Below are positions 5,536 to 63,197 of a DNA stretch of 64,000 bases, in pieces. The DNA comes from an uncultured Pseudohongiella sp. (GTDB lineage Bacteria; Pseudomonadota; Gammaproteobacteria; Pseudomonadales; Pseudohongiellaceae): the NCBI GenBank assembly GCA_902531515.1, contig CACAEJ010000002.1:62001-126000 (forward strand), in the 5' to 3' direction. Within the stretch, counting starts at the first letter, position 1; each line of letters starts with the position of its first letter. The translations under genes were made by a program, and so were the position numbers. The notes below the pieces were generated by a model, which was not told the DNA's origin, searched no databases, and worked only from the letters and a program-made list of their open reading frames with translations.

Positions 5536-5647
5536 ACAAGAGTATATTTGTCATCTGTTATTTGACTTATCAAAATTCTTTGCCTTGGTTTGAAATTATT
5601 GAAAACGGTATTTTGGGCTTACTTTAGCATTCCGAGTTTAACGTCAA

Positions 5648-5677
5648 TTGTGTCTATGCTGACTAACTTGCTATGAT
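5648..5677 (+). promoter_or_regulatory. Candidate promoter of cstA
   Basis: TTGTGT (5648-5653), an 18-nt spacer and TATGAT (5672-5677). The -10 is preceded by TGC, an extended -10 element. It lies about 40 bp before the cstA ATG. Confidence 0.45.
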
Positions 5678-47705: not shown

Positions 47706-47894
47706 TTTTGTTTAGCCTCATGCCGGAGCTATCTGTGATGTGTTGTAAAGATAGCACTAGTAGCAAGGTGATCAGATTGATTGACGGGGTTTGCGTCAAG
47801 TACTTGATTTATTAAACTAGTGAAAATGGTTTCTGTCTTCGAACGCACTATAAGTATATCGTACCTTGCTGTCCCAATAAATTGGTGAGCATAA

Positions 47895-47922
47895 TTGCAA
47901 AATTTTAATCAAAACATATAAA
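47895..47922 (+). promoter_or_regulatory. Candidate promoter of the Asp/Asn hydroxylase-like gene
   Basis: TTGCAA (47895-47900), 16 nt, TATAAA (47917-47922), 24 bp before ATG 47946, in AT-rich DNA of the 240-bp divergent spacer shared with glpK. Confidence 0.45.
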
Positions 47923-50146: not shown

Positions 50147-50521
50147 TTATTCCTCAGATTGATAGGGGTTTTCTGGCATTAATTCAATGTTAAGTGGTGC
50201 TCTTCTCGAAAAAGTTTTTGCGCCGTAATTGGTGGCGAGATAATTCAGAATCGACTCTTCTATATCCGAAGCTAGAATTTGAAGCCCCTGTGTGTCCTGC
50301 ATCCATCGAATGCGACTCTCCCATACCGCTTTGTTACCTGAATTTTGTGTGATCAATAGTGACGAGTGGCACTCTGTGCAATTTGCTTGTACGTCTTTCC
50401 ATCCATCGGCAACAATCAAACTTGAAGAATCAGGTGTCTCTATTTGTGCTACGGAAAGGTCGGTTAGAAAAGCCGCTGCTAATCCAAGAGTTATTATCGC
50501 TGGGAATAATCTCTTTGTCAT
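50147..50521 (-). CDS. SorB-like monohaem cytochrome c
   Basis: I use ATG 50521 (124 aa), which begins directly with a signal peptide (MTKRLFPAIITLGLAAAF) and falls just after the sulfite oxidase stop; a longer frame from 50560 would overlap that gene. One haem motif, CTECH (48-52), in NCTECHSSLLITQ, followed by RIRWMQDTQGL and LNYLATNYG. This layout matches the cytochrome subunit of SorAB-type sulfite dehydrogenase, accepting electrons from the adjacent molybdenum subunit in the periplasm. Confidence 0.8.
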   Translation of the reverse strand: MTKRLFPAIITLGLAAAFLTDLSVAQIETPDSSSLIVADGWKDVQANCTECHSSLLITQNSGNKAVWESRIRWMQDTQGLQILASDIEESILNYLATNYGAKTFSRRAPLNIELMPENPYQSEE

Positions 50522-50525
50522 ATTT

Positions 50526-51839
50526 TTAAGTGGCTTGCACCGCCACTCTGTGGCAGGCATTGTTTAAGTAACCTCGAGGATTCCATCCGGGAACAACCAT
50601 TGGCTGCGAGCGACCCATGTTATCCATTGCTCGAGCCCATATTTCATAATAACCTGGTTCTGGGAACTGGACCCAAGACTCAAAGTTCTGCCAAGAAAGA
50701 CGATTTGAAGCTGAGCCTACAGCAGTTGGTATCCAAGTGGCTCCGAAGTCAATTGACAGGAACACACCACTAGTTTGATCGTCGCCTGCCCAGGCATGGC
50801 CTCTTACTGGCATTCTTTGTCGGTAATCATGATTGACGCCCGACTGCGGGAAGGTTATCAGTGATTTGACGGGCATAGATTCGATGATTTGCATGTCTGC
50901 ATTTGGAACCCTGCTGCCAGGGGCGACACTTTTGTTCGGAACCGAGTAAGATGGGGCAGCCATTTTTTCGCCATCGTGCACCTGGTTGCGTATAACTAGT
51001 CGATTTAGCCATTTACCCGAGACTGAACCTGGCCAGCCAGCGCAGATCAGGCGAAGAGGGAAACCGTTCTGCAAGGGTATTTCTTCATCATTCATAGACC
51101 ATGCAATTAGAGATTCTCTTTCCATAGCCTTACTAATTGGTACACCTCGAGAAATAGGATCAACATCCGGGTTTCCGCTAGTGTGTGTGTCAGCGCCGTA
51201 ATATCCAACATAAACCGCATCTCTGGCTACACCACAATAATTGAGTACGTCCCTTAGCCTCACGCCAGTGAATTTAGGACAGCCTATAGCCCCTGTCGTC
51301 CACTGATTCCCACTTGCCGCAGGCACGAATTCGCTCCGACCGTTACCGCCGCACTCTAACTGCAGTTGCAAAGTAACCTCTTCGAACCTCTCTCTTAGAT
51401 CCCTTATTGAAAAGGTGGTAGGCGTGACACATGACTCACCCCCAATCTCTAGTCTCCAATTCTCTGGATCAACACTTTCAGGCGGGATACCGTTGTTTCT
51501 TATAAACATGTGTCTGTTGGGAGTAACAGCTGCATCCAATAAGTGAGCTGGCGTTTCCGCGTTGACCGGCCTGTCGTTAAGAATTATCAGGCCGTCTTTG
51601 CCTTCGATCATATCGGGTGCACTTTCAGCAGCAAAGGCTGCAGGAATGAGACCCGCAGGCATAAACCTCGCAAACGGAATAGTCAAACCAAGTGCCGTAG
51701 AGAGTGAAACTAGACCTGCATTTTGCAGAAAACCCCTACGAGACGTTTTGTAAGCTTGCCTTCCCCAGAACTTTGCGTCAGCAGCGATTGGATCACTTCC
51801 ATAAAGCTGATTAAGTTTTGCGGCTTCTTTTTTCGACAT
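50526..51839 (-). CDS. SorA-like sulfite dehydrogenase, molybdenum subunit
   Basis: 437 residues with a Tat signal (SRRGFLQNAG, 33-42). The molybdopterin-binding oxidoreductase domain has the Mo-ligand Cys163 in LECGGNGR, then YYGADTHTSGNPD and LRLICAGWPGSVSGKWL; the C-terminal dimerisation domain follows. Predicted to oxidise sulfite to sulfate in the periplasm and reduce the adjacent cytochrome, 4 nt downstream. This is distinct from the SoxC-like enzyme at 61.9-63.2 kb. Other molybdenum sulfoxide or sulfite-like substrates cannot be excluded. Confidence 0.83.
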   Translation of the reverse strand: MSKKEAAKLNQLYGSDPIAADAKFWGRQAYKTSRRGFLQNAGLVSLSTALGLTIPFARFMPAGLIPAAFAAESAPDMIEGKDGLIILNDRPVNAETPAHLLDAAVTPNRHMFIRNNGIPPESVDPENWRLEIGGESCVTPTTFSIRDLRERFEEVTLQLQLECGGNGRSEFVPAASGNQWTTGAIGCPKFTGVRLRDVLNYCGVARDAVYVGYYGADTHTSGNPDVDPISRGVPISKAMERESLIAWSMNDEEIPLQNGFPLRLICAGWPGSVSGKWLNRLVIRNQVHDGEKMAAPSYSVPNKSVAPGSRVPNADMQIIESMPVKSLITFPQSGVNHDYRQRMPVRGHAWAGDDQTSGVFLSIDFGATWIPTAVGSASNRLSWQNFESWVQFPEPGYYEIWARAMDNMGRSQPMVVPGWNPRGYLNNACHRVAVQAT

Positions 51840-56811: not shown

Positions 56812-56941
56812 AGACAGCTTCCAAGAGAAAAGGCTATAGTTTTATTGCTCGATTTTACATGAAAACGAATAATAAGTTCAGCACTGCGTTGATCCAACAA
56901 CTGTGACGTTCACAAGGACTTATCTTGGGGAGGGTGAAAAG

Positions 56942-57160
56942 ATGGATATAGAAATTGTTTTTTGTATGGCGTGAAATTACAGACCAGATGCCGACCGTGT
57001 GTCGGAAGAGGTGAGAACCGCGACTGGCATAGTTCCTGAATTGACGCCTGGGTTAGGAGGCATATTTGACGTAAAACTAAACGGTGAAACTGTTTTTTCA
57101 AAGCACCGGTCAGGGAGATTTCCAAAAGATGGTGAAATTTCGGACCTTTTAGACAAATAA
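56942..57160 (+). CDS. SelW-like selenoprotein (Rdx family), in-frame TGA read as Sec
   Basis: ATG 56942 to TAA 57160, 72 residues if TGA 56972-56974 is read as selenocysteine (Sec11). A strong Shine-Dalgarno, GGGGAGGG (56927-56934), precedes the ATG by 7 nt. The N-terminal IVFCMAUNYRPDADRV aligns with the CxxU redox motif of SelW (VVYCGAU in human). The rest, including GGIFDVKLNGETVFSK and SGRFPKDGEI, is characteristic of the Rdx (SelT/SelW/SelH) thioredoxin-like fold. Ordinary gene finders would stop at codon 11. A suitable stem-loop follows the TGA. Likely a small cytosolic thiol/selenol oxidoreductase. Divergent from alkaline phosphatase, convergent with the OFA transporter (10 nt apart). 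The Sec machinery must be encoded elsewhere. Confidence 0.85.
56991..57005 (+). promoter_or_regulatory. Candidate bacterial SECIS element
   Basis: CCGAC (56991-56995) pairs with GTCGG (57001-57005), loop CGTGT. The stem begins 16 nt and the loop 21 nt after the TGA; the loop has G in its second position. This fits the general bSECIS rules (4 or more bp upper stem, small loop with an early G, within roughly 16-37 nt of the UGA). SelB binding is inferred. Confidence 0.7.
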
Positions 57161-61278: not shown

Positions 61279-61431
61279 ATGTATTTTATGGAGGACTACA
61301 ACCCAAGGTTTCAAATTGTTGCAGGTTCGCAATCTGAGGTTTATTCAAGAAATTTAGCAGATGTTCATCAAGGAGGCGTTCTACTGAATTTTGACACTGA
61401 AGGATTTATTGAATATGACTTCGGTCGATGA
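61279..61431 (+). CDS. Possible small protein of 50 residues
   Basis: ATG 61279 to TGA 61431 in the gap between two minus-strand genes, overlapping the 3' end of the cytochrome gene by 26 nt. GAGAGGA lies just upstream. The peptide (MYFMEDYNPRFQIVAGSQS...) has a balanced composition and no membrane segment. I do not recognise it. It may be a chance frame. Confidence 0.25.
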   Translation: MYFMEDYNPRFQIVAGSQSEVYSRNLADVHQGGVLLNFDTEGFIEYDFGR

Positions 61432-61936
61432 ATCCGTTGGCGTTCGGCATCTCAATTTCCCGGATAGTGTCTCCATTAATTTGAGTGCCTTCTTCAACTA
61501 TACCATTCATAAAAAGGACGTATGCGGTCACTTGATAGACCTGCTCGTTAGTTAAGGACTTAGGAGCAGTTGCTGGCATGGCTCTTCTTATGAAATCAAA
61601 TAATGTACTTGCGTAAGGCCAGTAGCTCCCAACTGTTCTCAGAGGAGGTCCTTCGGATTGCATGTCTCCTCCAACAATCACAGTGTTCCCCGAGGTACCT
61701 TCTCCGCCAGCGCCGTGACAAACAGCGCAGTTGACATCATAGATTTGCTTTCCTTCTTGAGCGGTCCCGCCTCCAGGAGGAAATCCTGAGCCATCCGGAG
61801 GGGCAATTAGATCAAATTCCAAAAGGTCCTCTTCAGTTACTGGTATCCCTAACCTCACAGATTCTTGGGAATTCGCTATTAAAGGTACATGGGCTAAGAT
61901 AAGAAAGAAAACCGAGCAAAGAAATTCCTTAAACAT
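61406..61936 (-). CDS. SoxD-like c-type cytochrome
   Basis: 176 residues with a signal peptide. A single class I haem site: Cys70, Cys73, His74 in NCAVCHGAGGEG, and the likely distal Met120 in FIRRAMP. The sequences SYWPYASTLFDFIRRAMP and QVYQVTAYVLFMNGIV match the N-terminal cytochrome domain of SoxD. Starts 8 nt inside the soxC gene, so the two are translationally coupled and the product is its probable electron acceptor. Shorter than classical SoxD, which has two haem domains. Confidence 0.85.
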   Translation of the reverse strand: MFKEFLCSVFFLILAHVPLIANSQESVRLGIPVTEEDLLEFDLIAPPDGSGFPPGGGTAQEGKQIYDVNCAVCHGAGGEGTSGNTVIVGGDMQSEGPPLRTVGSYWPYASTLFDFIRRAMPATAPKSLTNEQVYQVTAYVLFMNGIVEEGTQINGDTIREIEMPNANGFIDRSHIQ

Positions 61937-63197
61937 AGACGTTTCTGACCTCTCCTGCTGGGCCTACCTGCCAACTCTGTATGCATGGATTATGGTAGAA
62001 ACTCAGTGTACCTCTGCTCGCGATTACGTCACTGCGAGTTGGCTGAATGCTCCCACGGCTATCTGTTGCGCGGCTTTGCAAGATGGCGTCTCCTCCATTC
62101 CACTCCCACGGAATGGTGAAACGTGTTAAAGCCCTATCCAACTGATGACCTTGAATTGCCGCTTCCGCCCAGGTCTTTCCCCCGTCTGCACTAACCTCGA
62201 CCTGCCGTATACTTCCTCGGCCGCTCCAAGCTATTCCCGTAATTTGGTAGATTCCGGGTTGGTTAAGAGTCATCTCACCGGATGGTGAGGTGATAAGCGA
62301 CTTCGTGCCCATCGGGAAGGTGAATTGATAACTCGATCTATTTTGCAGGGTATCTGTATATTTACTTGTTTCGTCACGAAATTGAGCTGGTTCTTGTGTG
62401 ACCTTAATTTGCGTCAACCACTTAACGCTCACATTGCCCTCCCAACCCGGACAGAACAAGCGCATCGGGTAGCCTTGGCCCGGCCTTACCGCTTCACCAT
62501 TTTGATAGAGCGCCACCATCACATCATCAAGTGCTTTTGTCAGAGGTATTGATCGACCCATGCTTGCGGCATCTGCTCCGACCGCTGCGACCCATGCCGC
62601 TTCGGGTAGAACGCCTGCTTCATCCAGTAGGGTGGATAAAGGAATGCCTGTCCACTCTGCGCATGACACTAGACCGTGCAGGCTCTGTGCAGAACCCCCA
62701 ATTTCTCCACGCAGGAGTGCTCCGCTATTGCCAGAACATTCCAAGAAGTGAATGCGGCTCACCATCTGGTACTTCAATAAGTCCTCATAACGAAAAGCAA
62801 GTGGCTGTCTGACGAGCCCATTGATTACTAGCATGTGTTGTGAAGGGTCGATATTTGGAACACCGGCGTGATGTCTTTCAAAGTGTAGGCTATTTGGCGT
62901 GATGGTGCCCTGTAAGTGTTGTAAGGGAGAGCGAGACGAGCCGCCACCGGGGTAAGTTGGGTTTGGTTGAGCGGCTAGTCTTTGCAGATCGTCAGCGAAG
63001 GGTGAGCGCGCGCCATAGGCGGTTGCCCCCGGGCCGGGCTGACGCGACCATGTCGGAATTTGAAAACTTAATCCTTGATCAGCGCCAAGGGCCCCTGCAG
63101 ACAGAGCAAGTCCAGCCCCAGAGGCTCCAACTTTGAGTAGGTGCCTTCGGCTGATAAGTCCATTACCCGCTACTTTCCCAAGTTTTTCATCCGACAT
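61929..63197 (-). CDS. soxC: SoxC-like sulfite dehydrogenase, molybdenum subunit
   Basis: 422 residues with a Tat signal (SRRHLLKVGASG). Molybdenum ligand Cys154 in HFLECSGNSGA; MRLFCPGWEGNVSVKWLTQI and ITGIAWSGRGSIRQVEVSAD are typical of SoxC. Together with the downstream cytochrome it forms a SoxCD-type sulfane dehydrogenase or sulfite dehydrogenase. The other sox genes (soxXYZAB) are not in this window, so a stand-alone sulfite or sulfoxide-type enzyme is possible. Confidence 0.88.
   Translation of the reverse strand: MSDEKLGKVAGNGLISRRHLLKVGASGAGLALSAGALGADQGLSFQIPTWSRQPGPGATAYGARSPFADDLQRLAAQPNPTYPGGGSSRSPLQHLQGTITPNSLHFERHHAGVPNIDPSQHMLVINGLVRQPLAFRYEDLLKYQMVSRIHFLECSGNSGALLRGEIGGSAQSLHGLVSCAEWTGIPLSTLLDEAGVLPEAAWVAAVGADAASMGRSIPLTKALDDVMVALYQNGEAVRPGQGYPMRLFCPGWEGNVSVKWLTQIKVTQEPAQFRDETSKYTDTLQNRSSYQFTFPMGTKSLITSPSGEMTLNQPGIYQITGIAWSGRGSIRQVEVSADGGKTWAEAAIQGHQLDRALTRFTIPWEWNGGDAILQSRATDSRGSIQPTRSDVIASRGTLSFYHNPCIQSWQVGPAGEVRNVYV

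Follow-up and report, generated by a model that had tools for sequence, protein, structure and literature searches.

The locus considered here raises the question of whether a TGA at codon 11 of a short frame, in the draft genome of an uncultured Pseudohongiella sp., ends a 10-residue peptide or is read as selenocysteine (Sec) in a protein of the SelW type. The genome (1,918,941 bases in 81 contigs) is 66.91% complete, and the host bacterium is likely of marine origin. The window, i.e., the whole stretch of 64,000 nucleotides that was analysed, lies within contig C2. The original prediction had placed an overlooked selenoprotein gene in it, and direct reading found the start codon ATG at 56942, the TGA at codon 11, the TAA ending at 57160 and the C-M-A-U motif as claimed, together with a Shine-Dalgarno-like sequence at the expected place. 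The features of the locus are as follows.

56927..56934, + strand: Shine-Dalgarno-like GGGGAGGG, 7 nt 5' of the ATG at 56942, read directly
56942..57160, + strand: predicted gene for a SelW-like selenoprotein of 72 aa, one of them Sec, ending in TAA, from Rdx and NCBIfam profile matches across the TGA
56963..56974, + strand: CxxU redox motif C8-M9-A10-U11, located after the first strand and before the first long helix of the model
56972..56974, + strand: in-frame UGA, codon 11, predicted to be read as Sec; TGA in 24/24 genus loci, selA and selB in the genome
56989..57007, + strand: putative bacterial SECIS, core stem 56991-56995/57001-57005, loop 56996-57000 (CGUGU); two outer pairs in some relatives only

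The frame comprises 73 codons including the TAA stop (57158-57160), and its TGA is the single one in frame. With TGA translated as U, the product is MDIEIVFCMAUNYRPDADRVSEEVRTATGIVPELTPGLGGIFDVKLNGETVFSKHRSGRFPKDGEISDLLDK. The gene has an alkaline phosphatase gene on one side and an MFS gene on the other, and both neighbours lie on the - strand. Among the 24 loci of the genus described below, several of which are truncated at a contig end or at the limit of the retrieved stretch, an alkaline phosphatase homologue was found upstream in 12 and an MFS homologue as the next downstream ORF in 10. We read these shared neighbours as a sign of common descent that gives no hint on function. Elsewhere in the window, at 50147-51839 and 61406-63197 on the - strand, are two copies of one gene pair that by eye resembles a sulfite-oxidase-type molybdoenzyme and a small c-type cytochrome.

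Family and predicted fold of the read-through product

In a whole-genome search, the Rdx profile matched the locus above its cut-off with an alignment that spans the TGA (E 7.2e-12). The read-through protein scored 55 bits with PF10262 (Rdx; cut-off 22.6) and 50.9 bits with TIGR02174 (CXXU_selWTH; cut-off 34.2). Its best NCBIfam E-value (1.5e-20) was obtained with NF041051, the model of Campylobacter-type SelTWH, and its score of 73.2 bits was below the equivalog cut-off of 88 bits of that model. A family profile built from 23 sequences, i.e., from 21 of the 24 genus loci (the present one included; L023, L026 and L029 left out) plus L032 and L033, also found solved SelW-related proteins, such as 2fa8 (E 9.1e-14) and mouse SelW 2npb (E 2.6e-5).

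The AlphaFold2 model, made with four sequences, had a mean pLDDT of 94.9. In this model a strand at residues 3-8 is followed by the CxxU motif and then by a helix at residues 14-28, which puts the motif at the strand 1/helix 1 junction of a predicted thioredoxin-like fold. All of the 23 best PDB matches of the model were SelW-related or other Rdx proteins, and the first 21 (TM 0.86-0.92) were chains of six bacterial Rdx proteins (2fa8, 2oka, 2ojl, 2p0g, 2obk, and 3dex), which share family and predicted fold with the present protein and are 19-28% identical to it. Mouse SelW 2npb, a member of the same family, matched the model less well (TM 0.63); its CxxU presumably lies at the same place as that of the present protein. 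Thus, the claim that the gene belongs to the Rdx (SelT/SelW/SelH) family and is selW-like, which the original prediction proposed to check by a search against Rdx proteins, is supported by the profile matches and by the modelled fold.

Conservation of the UGA codon and of the hairpin

Rdx matches were found in 29 of the 58 genomes searched. Within the genus, 24 of 37 genomes (own included) had an Rdx gene, each with one internal TGA, which was at the same codon in 24/24 loci; the Cys form was found in 0/24. Relatives with neither Sec nor Cys at this position, which would speak against the gene as first proposed, were looked for and did not occur among these loci. No Rdx match was obtained in the remaining 13 genus genomes, 11 of which carry selA. 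In other families of the order, Rdx genes were found in 5 of 21 genomes; unlike the present CxxU protein, all five products are CxxC proteins with a longer C-terminal end. The UGA form is also present in L032 and L033, from MAGs that bear the titles Phycisphaerae and Deltaproteobacteria. Downstream of the TGA the frame is under purifying selection, with dN of 0.10 and dS of 0.66 against the nearest relative, L016, from which alone the values are quoted, as the distant relatives were unusable (dS of 1.9-2.6 for L021, dS of 27 by one method for L008 and no valid dS for L024). It should be noted that the start of the gene is missing in L020 (contig end) and L028, and that the C-terminal part of L029, which was counted in the SECIS tallies nonetheless, departs from the family, so that the L029 gene may be damaged.

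The stem and the G-containing 5-nt loop that had been claimed after the TGA are present: CCGAC (56991-56995) and GTCGG (57001-57005) enclose the loop CGTGT, whose second position is G, and the stem begins 16 nt after the TGA. Alignment of the 24 post-UGA stretches gave a 7-bp stem and a 5-nt loop in one register throughout. In comparison with shuffles, whose figures are not probabilities because the sequences are related, pairing was high (87.5% of 168 stem cells vs 72.4% in shuffles and 16-48% in slides) and so was the number of stem cells with a double change (26 vs 9.4), and 0 of 500 shuffles were as high in either measure. Two of the five covariation measures were weak, namely the number of stem pairs with a double change (4 vs 3.0; 96 of 500 shuffles reached 4) and that of further pair types (13 vs 10.6; 25 of 500 shuffles reached 13). 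The inner five stem pairs are well kept (unpaired in 0 to 4 of 24 loci), the outer two fail to form in 8/24 and 7/24, and RNAalifold recovered the inner four pairs unaided.

All loops have the form N-G-U-N-U (CGUGU in 19/24, AGUCU in 4/24 and AGUGU in 1/24), with G, U and U at positions 2, 3 and 5 in 24/24 loci. The codons above the loop are nearly fixed, with CGT for 19/19 Arg, GTG for 19/20 Val and GAC for 18/19 Asp. Apart from the TGA, these three are the most codon-conserved of 67 columns (0.90-1.00 vs a median of 0.38), on a scale that permits comparison only with other columns, as the sequences are related; the share of CGT among Arg codons elsewhere in the selW-like genes is 14%. The near freezing of the loop codons suggests that not only the protein but also the RNA is constrained. 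The invariant GU of the loop also fits G23 and U24 of the Escherichia coli SECIS, which are critical for SelB and located in the apical loop according to the accessible text of a review (PMC8659212). The SECIS reading of the hairpin is upheld by the invariant loop positions, by the frozen loop codons and, in part, by covariation.

By itself, the hairpin is weak evidence. A loose, home-made rule for bacterial SECIS elements, modelled on bSECISearch, was passed by 968 of the 2342 TGA triplets in the window (41%), and a geometry like that of the selW-like hairpin was found at 9 of the 2342, its own TGA included. Folding of single sequences was unremarkable (z of -0.72, -1.79, and -0.74, with 54, 11, and 42 of 200 shuffles folding equally well), the 60-nt stretch favouring a different fold. 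What lifts the hairpin above chance is its conservation in the 24 genus loci. Rfam, searched with the window at the gathering threshold, returned four tRNAs only and no match at the hairpin, for which it may hold no family. Our literature search listed no paper in which a GGUCU loop, SelB and SECIS occur together. The scan of the window for TGA read-through with a hairpin also listed two further short candidates, at 5548-5676 on the + strand and 47729-47917 on the - strand.

Selenocysteine machinery and the reading of the UGA codon

It had been inferred at the outset that the organism encodes selA, selB, selC, and selD elsewhere. The models of selB, selD and tRNA-Sec also matched all 14 control genomes below the cut-offs, and therefore only matches over the cut-offs were counted. 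On this basis selA (563 bits, G000:C24:10407-11780) and selB (380 bits, G000:C24:2125-4038) were confirmed in the genome that carries the gene, with a SelB that includes the C-terminal winged helix PF09107. The other half was not recovered in this 66.91%-complete bin: no tRNA-Sec (selC) was over the cut-off, even with all 135 candidates scored, and no SelD, for which the single model match reached 54 bits vs 125. In the 14 genus genomes with selB and tRNA-Sec on one contig, the tRNA-Sec is encoded on the strand opposite to selB, at a distance of at least 2.65 kb on its 3' side. Given that contig C24 stops about 2.1 kb 3' of selB, the contig end possibly explains the missing selC.

Counted by hand, selA was found in 32, selB in 30, tRNA-Sec in 29 and SelD in 34 of the 37 genus genomes, and in 21, 18, 17, and 21, respectively, of the 24 with the UGA gene. 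At least one of selA, selB and tRNA-Sec was present in 23 of these 24; G016 and G032 had a partial selB only, below the cut-off. In G019, an 85%-complete bin, the UGA gene lies between its usual neighbours and selA, selB, tRNA-Sec and SelD were all absent over the cut-offs. Outside the genus, selA was found in 4 of 21 genomes. In G012 and G014, ARAGORN called a tRNA-Sec whose anticodon is TCA.

Several observations concern the machinery genes themselves. SelD sits within an open frame of 753-873 aa in 29 of the 34 genus genomes in which it passed the cut-off. That of G012 (L052, G012:C3:930000-934000) has by eye a long N-terminal part like an NADH-dehydrogenase-type flavoprotein fused to a Cys-type SelD, and fusions of this kind are described in the accessible text of an earlier paper (PMC4561486). 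G028 (L053, G028:C40:1-2500) has a stand-alone Sec-type SelD with one in-frame TGA near the N-terminus, where G012 has Cys. The best selB match of G035 (G035:C105:47295-49205) holds one internal TAA, which reflects either assembly error or decay.

The frame could instead be a pseudogene or a sequencing error, in which a former CxxC Rdx gene acquired a premature stop, as the standard code, which ends the frame after 10 codons, would have it. The recurrence of the same TGA in 24/24 genus loci and in the two MAGs from outside the genus, the low dN relative to dS downstream of it and the covarying hairpin make this very improbable. Chance coincidence of hairpin and frame, with a 10-aa leader peptide or no product at all, draws on the ease with which TGA triplets pass the loose hairpin rule. 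We regard it as extremely improbable in view of the Rdx E-value across the TGA, the relatives, the covariation and the frozen loop codons.

It is likewise very unlikely that the UGA is decoded independently of SECIS or SelB, by insertion of Cys or Trp, by near-cognate read-through or by a reassigned UGA. Such decoding would accord with G019 and with an apparent rarity of UGA as a stop, since TGA ends 2 of the 24 ORFs of at least 250 aa in the window. Several relatives, however, close the selW-like gene itself with TGA, the adjoining MFS gene ends in TGA, selA and selB are present, and loop and stem are constrained in the way of a SECIS. Pseudogene, leader peptide and SelB-free read-through were thus rejected on the conserved TGA and downstream frame, the constraint on the hairpin and selA/selB.

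The best explanation, which we hold to be highly probable, is that this is a selW-like gene of the Rdx family in which UGA codon 11 is decoded as Sec via SelB and the hairpin. Family, predicted fold, conserved UGA, SECIS constraint and the presence of selA and selB are evidenced here; Sec insertion itself, the supply of selC and selD within this genome, and the redox reaction and its partners are what we infer. Counted against this explanation are the selC and selD not found, G019, the 13 genus genomes without the gene, the two weak covariation measures, the unremarkable folding, the absence of an Rfam match and the missed NF041051 cut-off. The CxxU selenoprotein reading originally put forward is supported by the Rdx match across the TGA, the TGA in 24/24 loci and the constrained hairpin.

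Proposed function and relation to known SelW-like proteins

In the proposed mechanism, SelB carrying Sec-tRNA would bind the hairpin, which begins 16 nt downstream of the UGA, recognise its GU-containing 5-nt loop and deliver Sec at codon 11. The 72-residue product would be thioredoxin-like, with its C-x-x-U site between the first strand and the first helix, and the selenol-thiol pair of this site would most likely perform thiol-dependent redox chemistry. The product is most likely a small thiol/selenol oxidoreductase whose redox partner is probably glutathione or a related thiol. In the accessible text of the Sargasso Sea survey, the function of SelW-like proteins is termed unclear, a redox role is inferred from the CxxU motif and an interaction with glutathione is cited (PMC1088965).

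The SelW-like selenoproteins of the Sargasso Sea and GOS surveys (PMC1088965, PMC2398784), as far as the accessible text describes them, are likewise small CxxU proteins with UGA-encoded Sec, a SECIS close behind the UGA whose small loop contains a G, and a marine setting. No substantial difference from them was apparent in that text; what the present copy adds is its assignment to a defined genus, along with machinery genes and gene neighbours. In a later marine survey the SelW-like family is given as 11.3%, again in the accessible text (PMC9402790). The eukaryotic SECIS, which sits in the 3' UTR (PMC1088965, accessible text), differs in position from the hairpin after the UGA here. Campylobacter SelW is alike in UGA-encoded Sec, and the present protein scores below the cut-off of its model. 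Full-length translation of Campylobacter jejuni SelW past the UGA is backed by Ribo-seq and proteomics, according to the accessible text of that study (PMC11955535).

To look for other selenoproteins that could account for the Sec machinery, 41 genus genomes were searched with the formate-dehydrogenase model; 16 of them matched over the cut-off, and none of the matches listed had an internal TGA. A CMD/AhpD-type search of the genome that carries the gene gave 5 matches, and again none of those listed had an internal TGA. FdhA is frequently the only selenoprotein of a bacterium, according to the accessible text of one paper (PMC13188914).

The UGA gene is a sound and well-supported fresh example of a SelW-like family that is already known and abundant in the sea, and it leaves the knowledge of SelW-like proteins unchanged. 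The gene is common to two thirds of the genus genomes searched, and a standard-code gene caller would cut it after 10 codons. The alignment of 24 naturally occurring SECIS variants, in which some changes are compensatory and the loop hardly varies, could be used for testing SelB recognition and SECIS finders. A more tentative reading, which we hold to be less likely than not, is that the N-G-U-N-U loop is a genus-specific SECIS dialect and that SelW rather than formate dehydrogenase helps to keep the Sec trait, given that no listed formate-dehydrogenase match has an internal TGA. If the dialect is real, SelB and the loop would have co-evolved within one genus.
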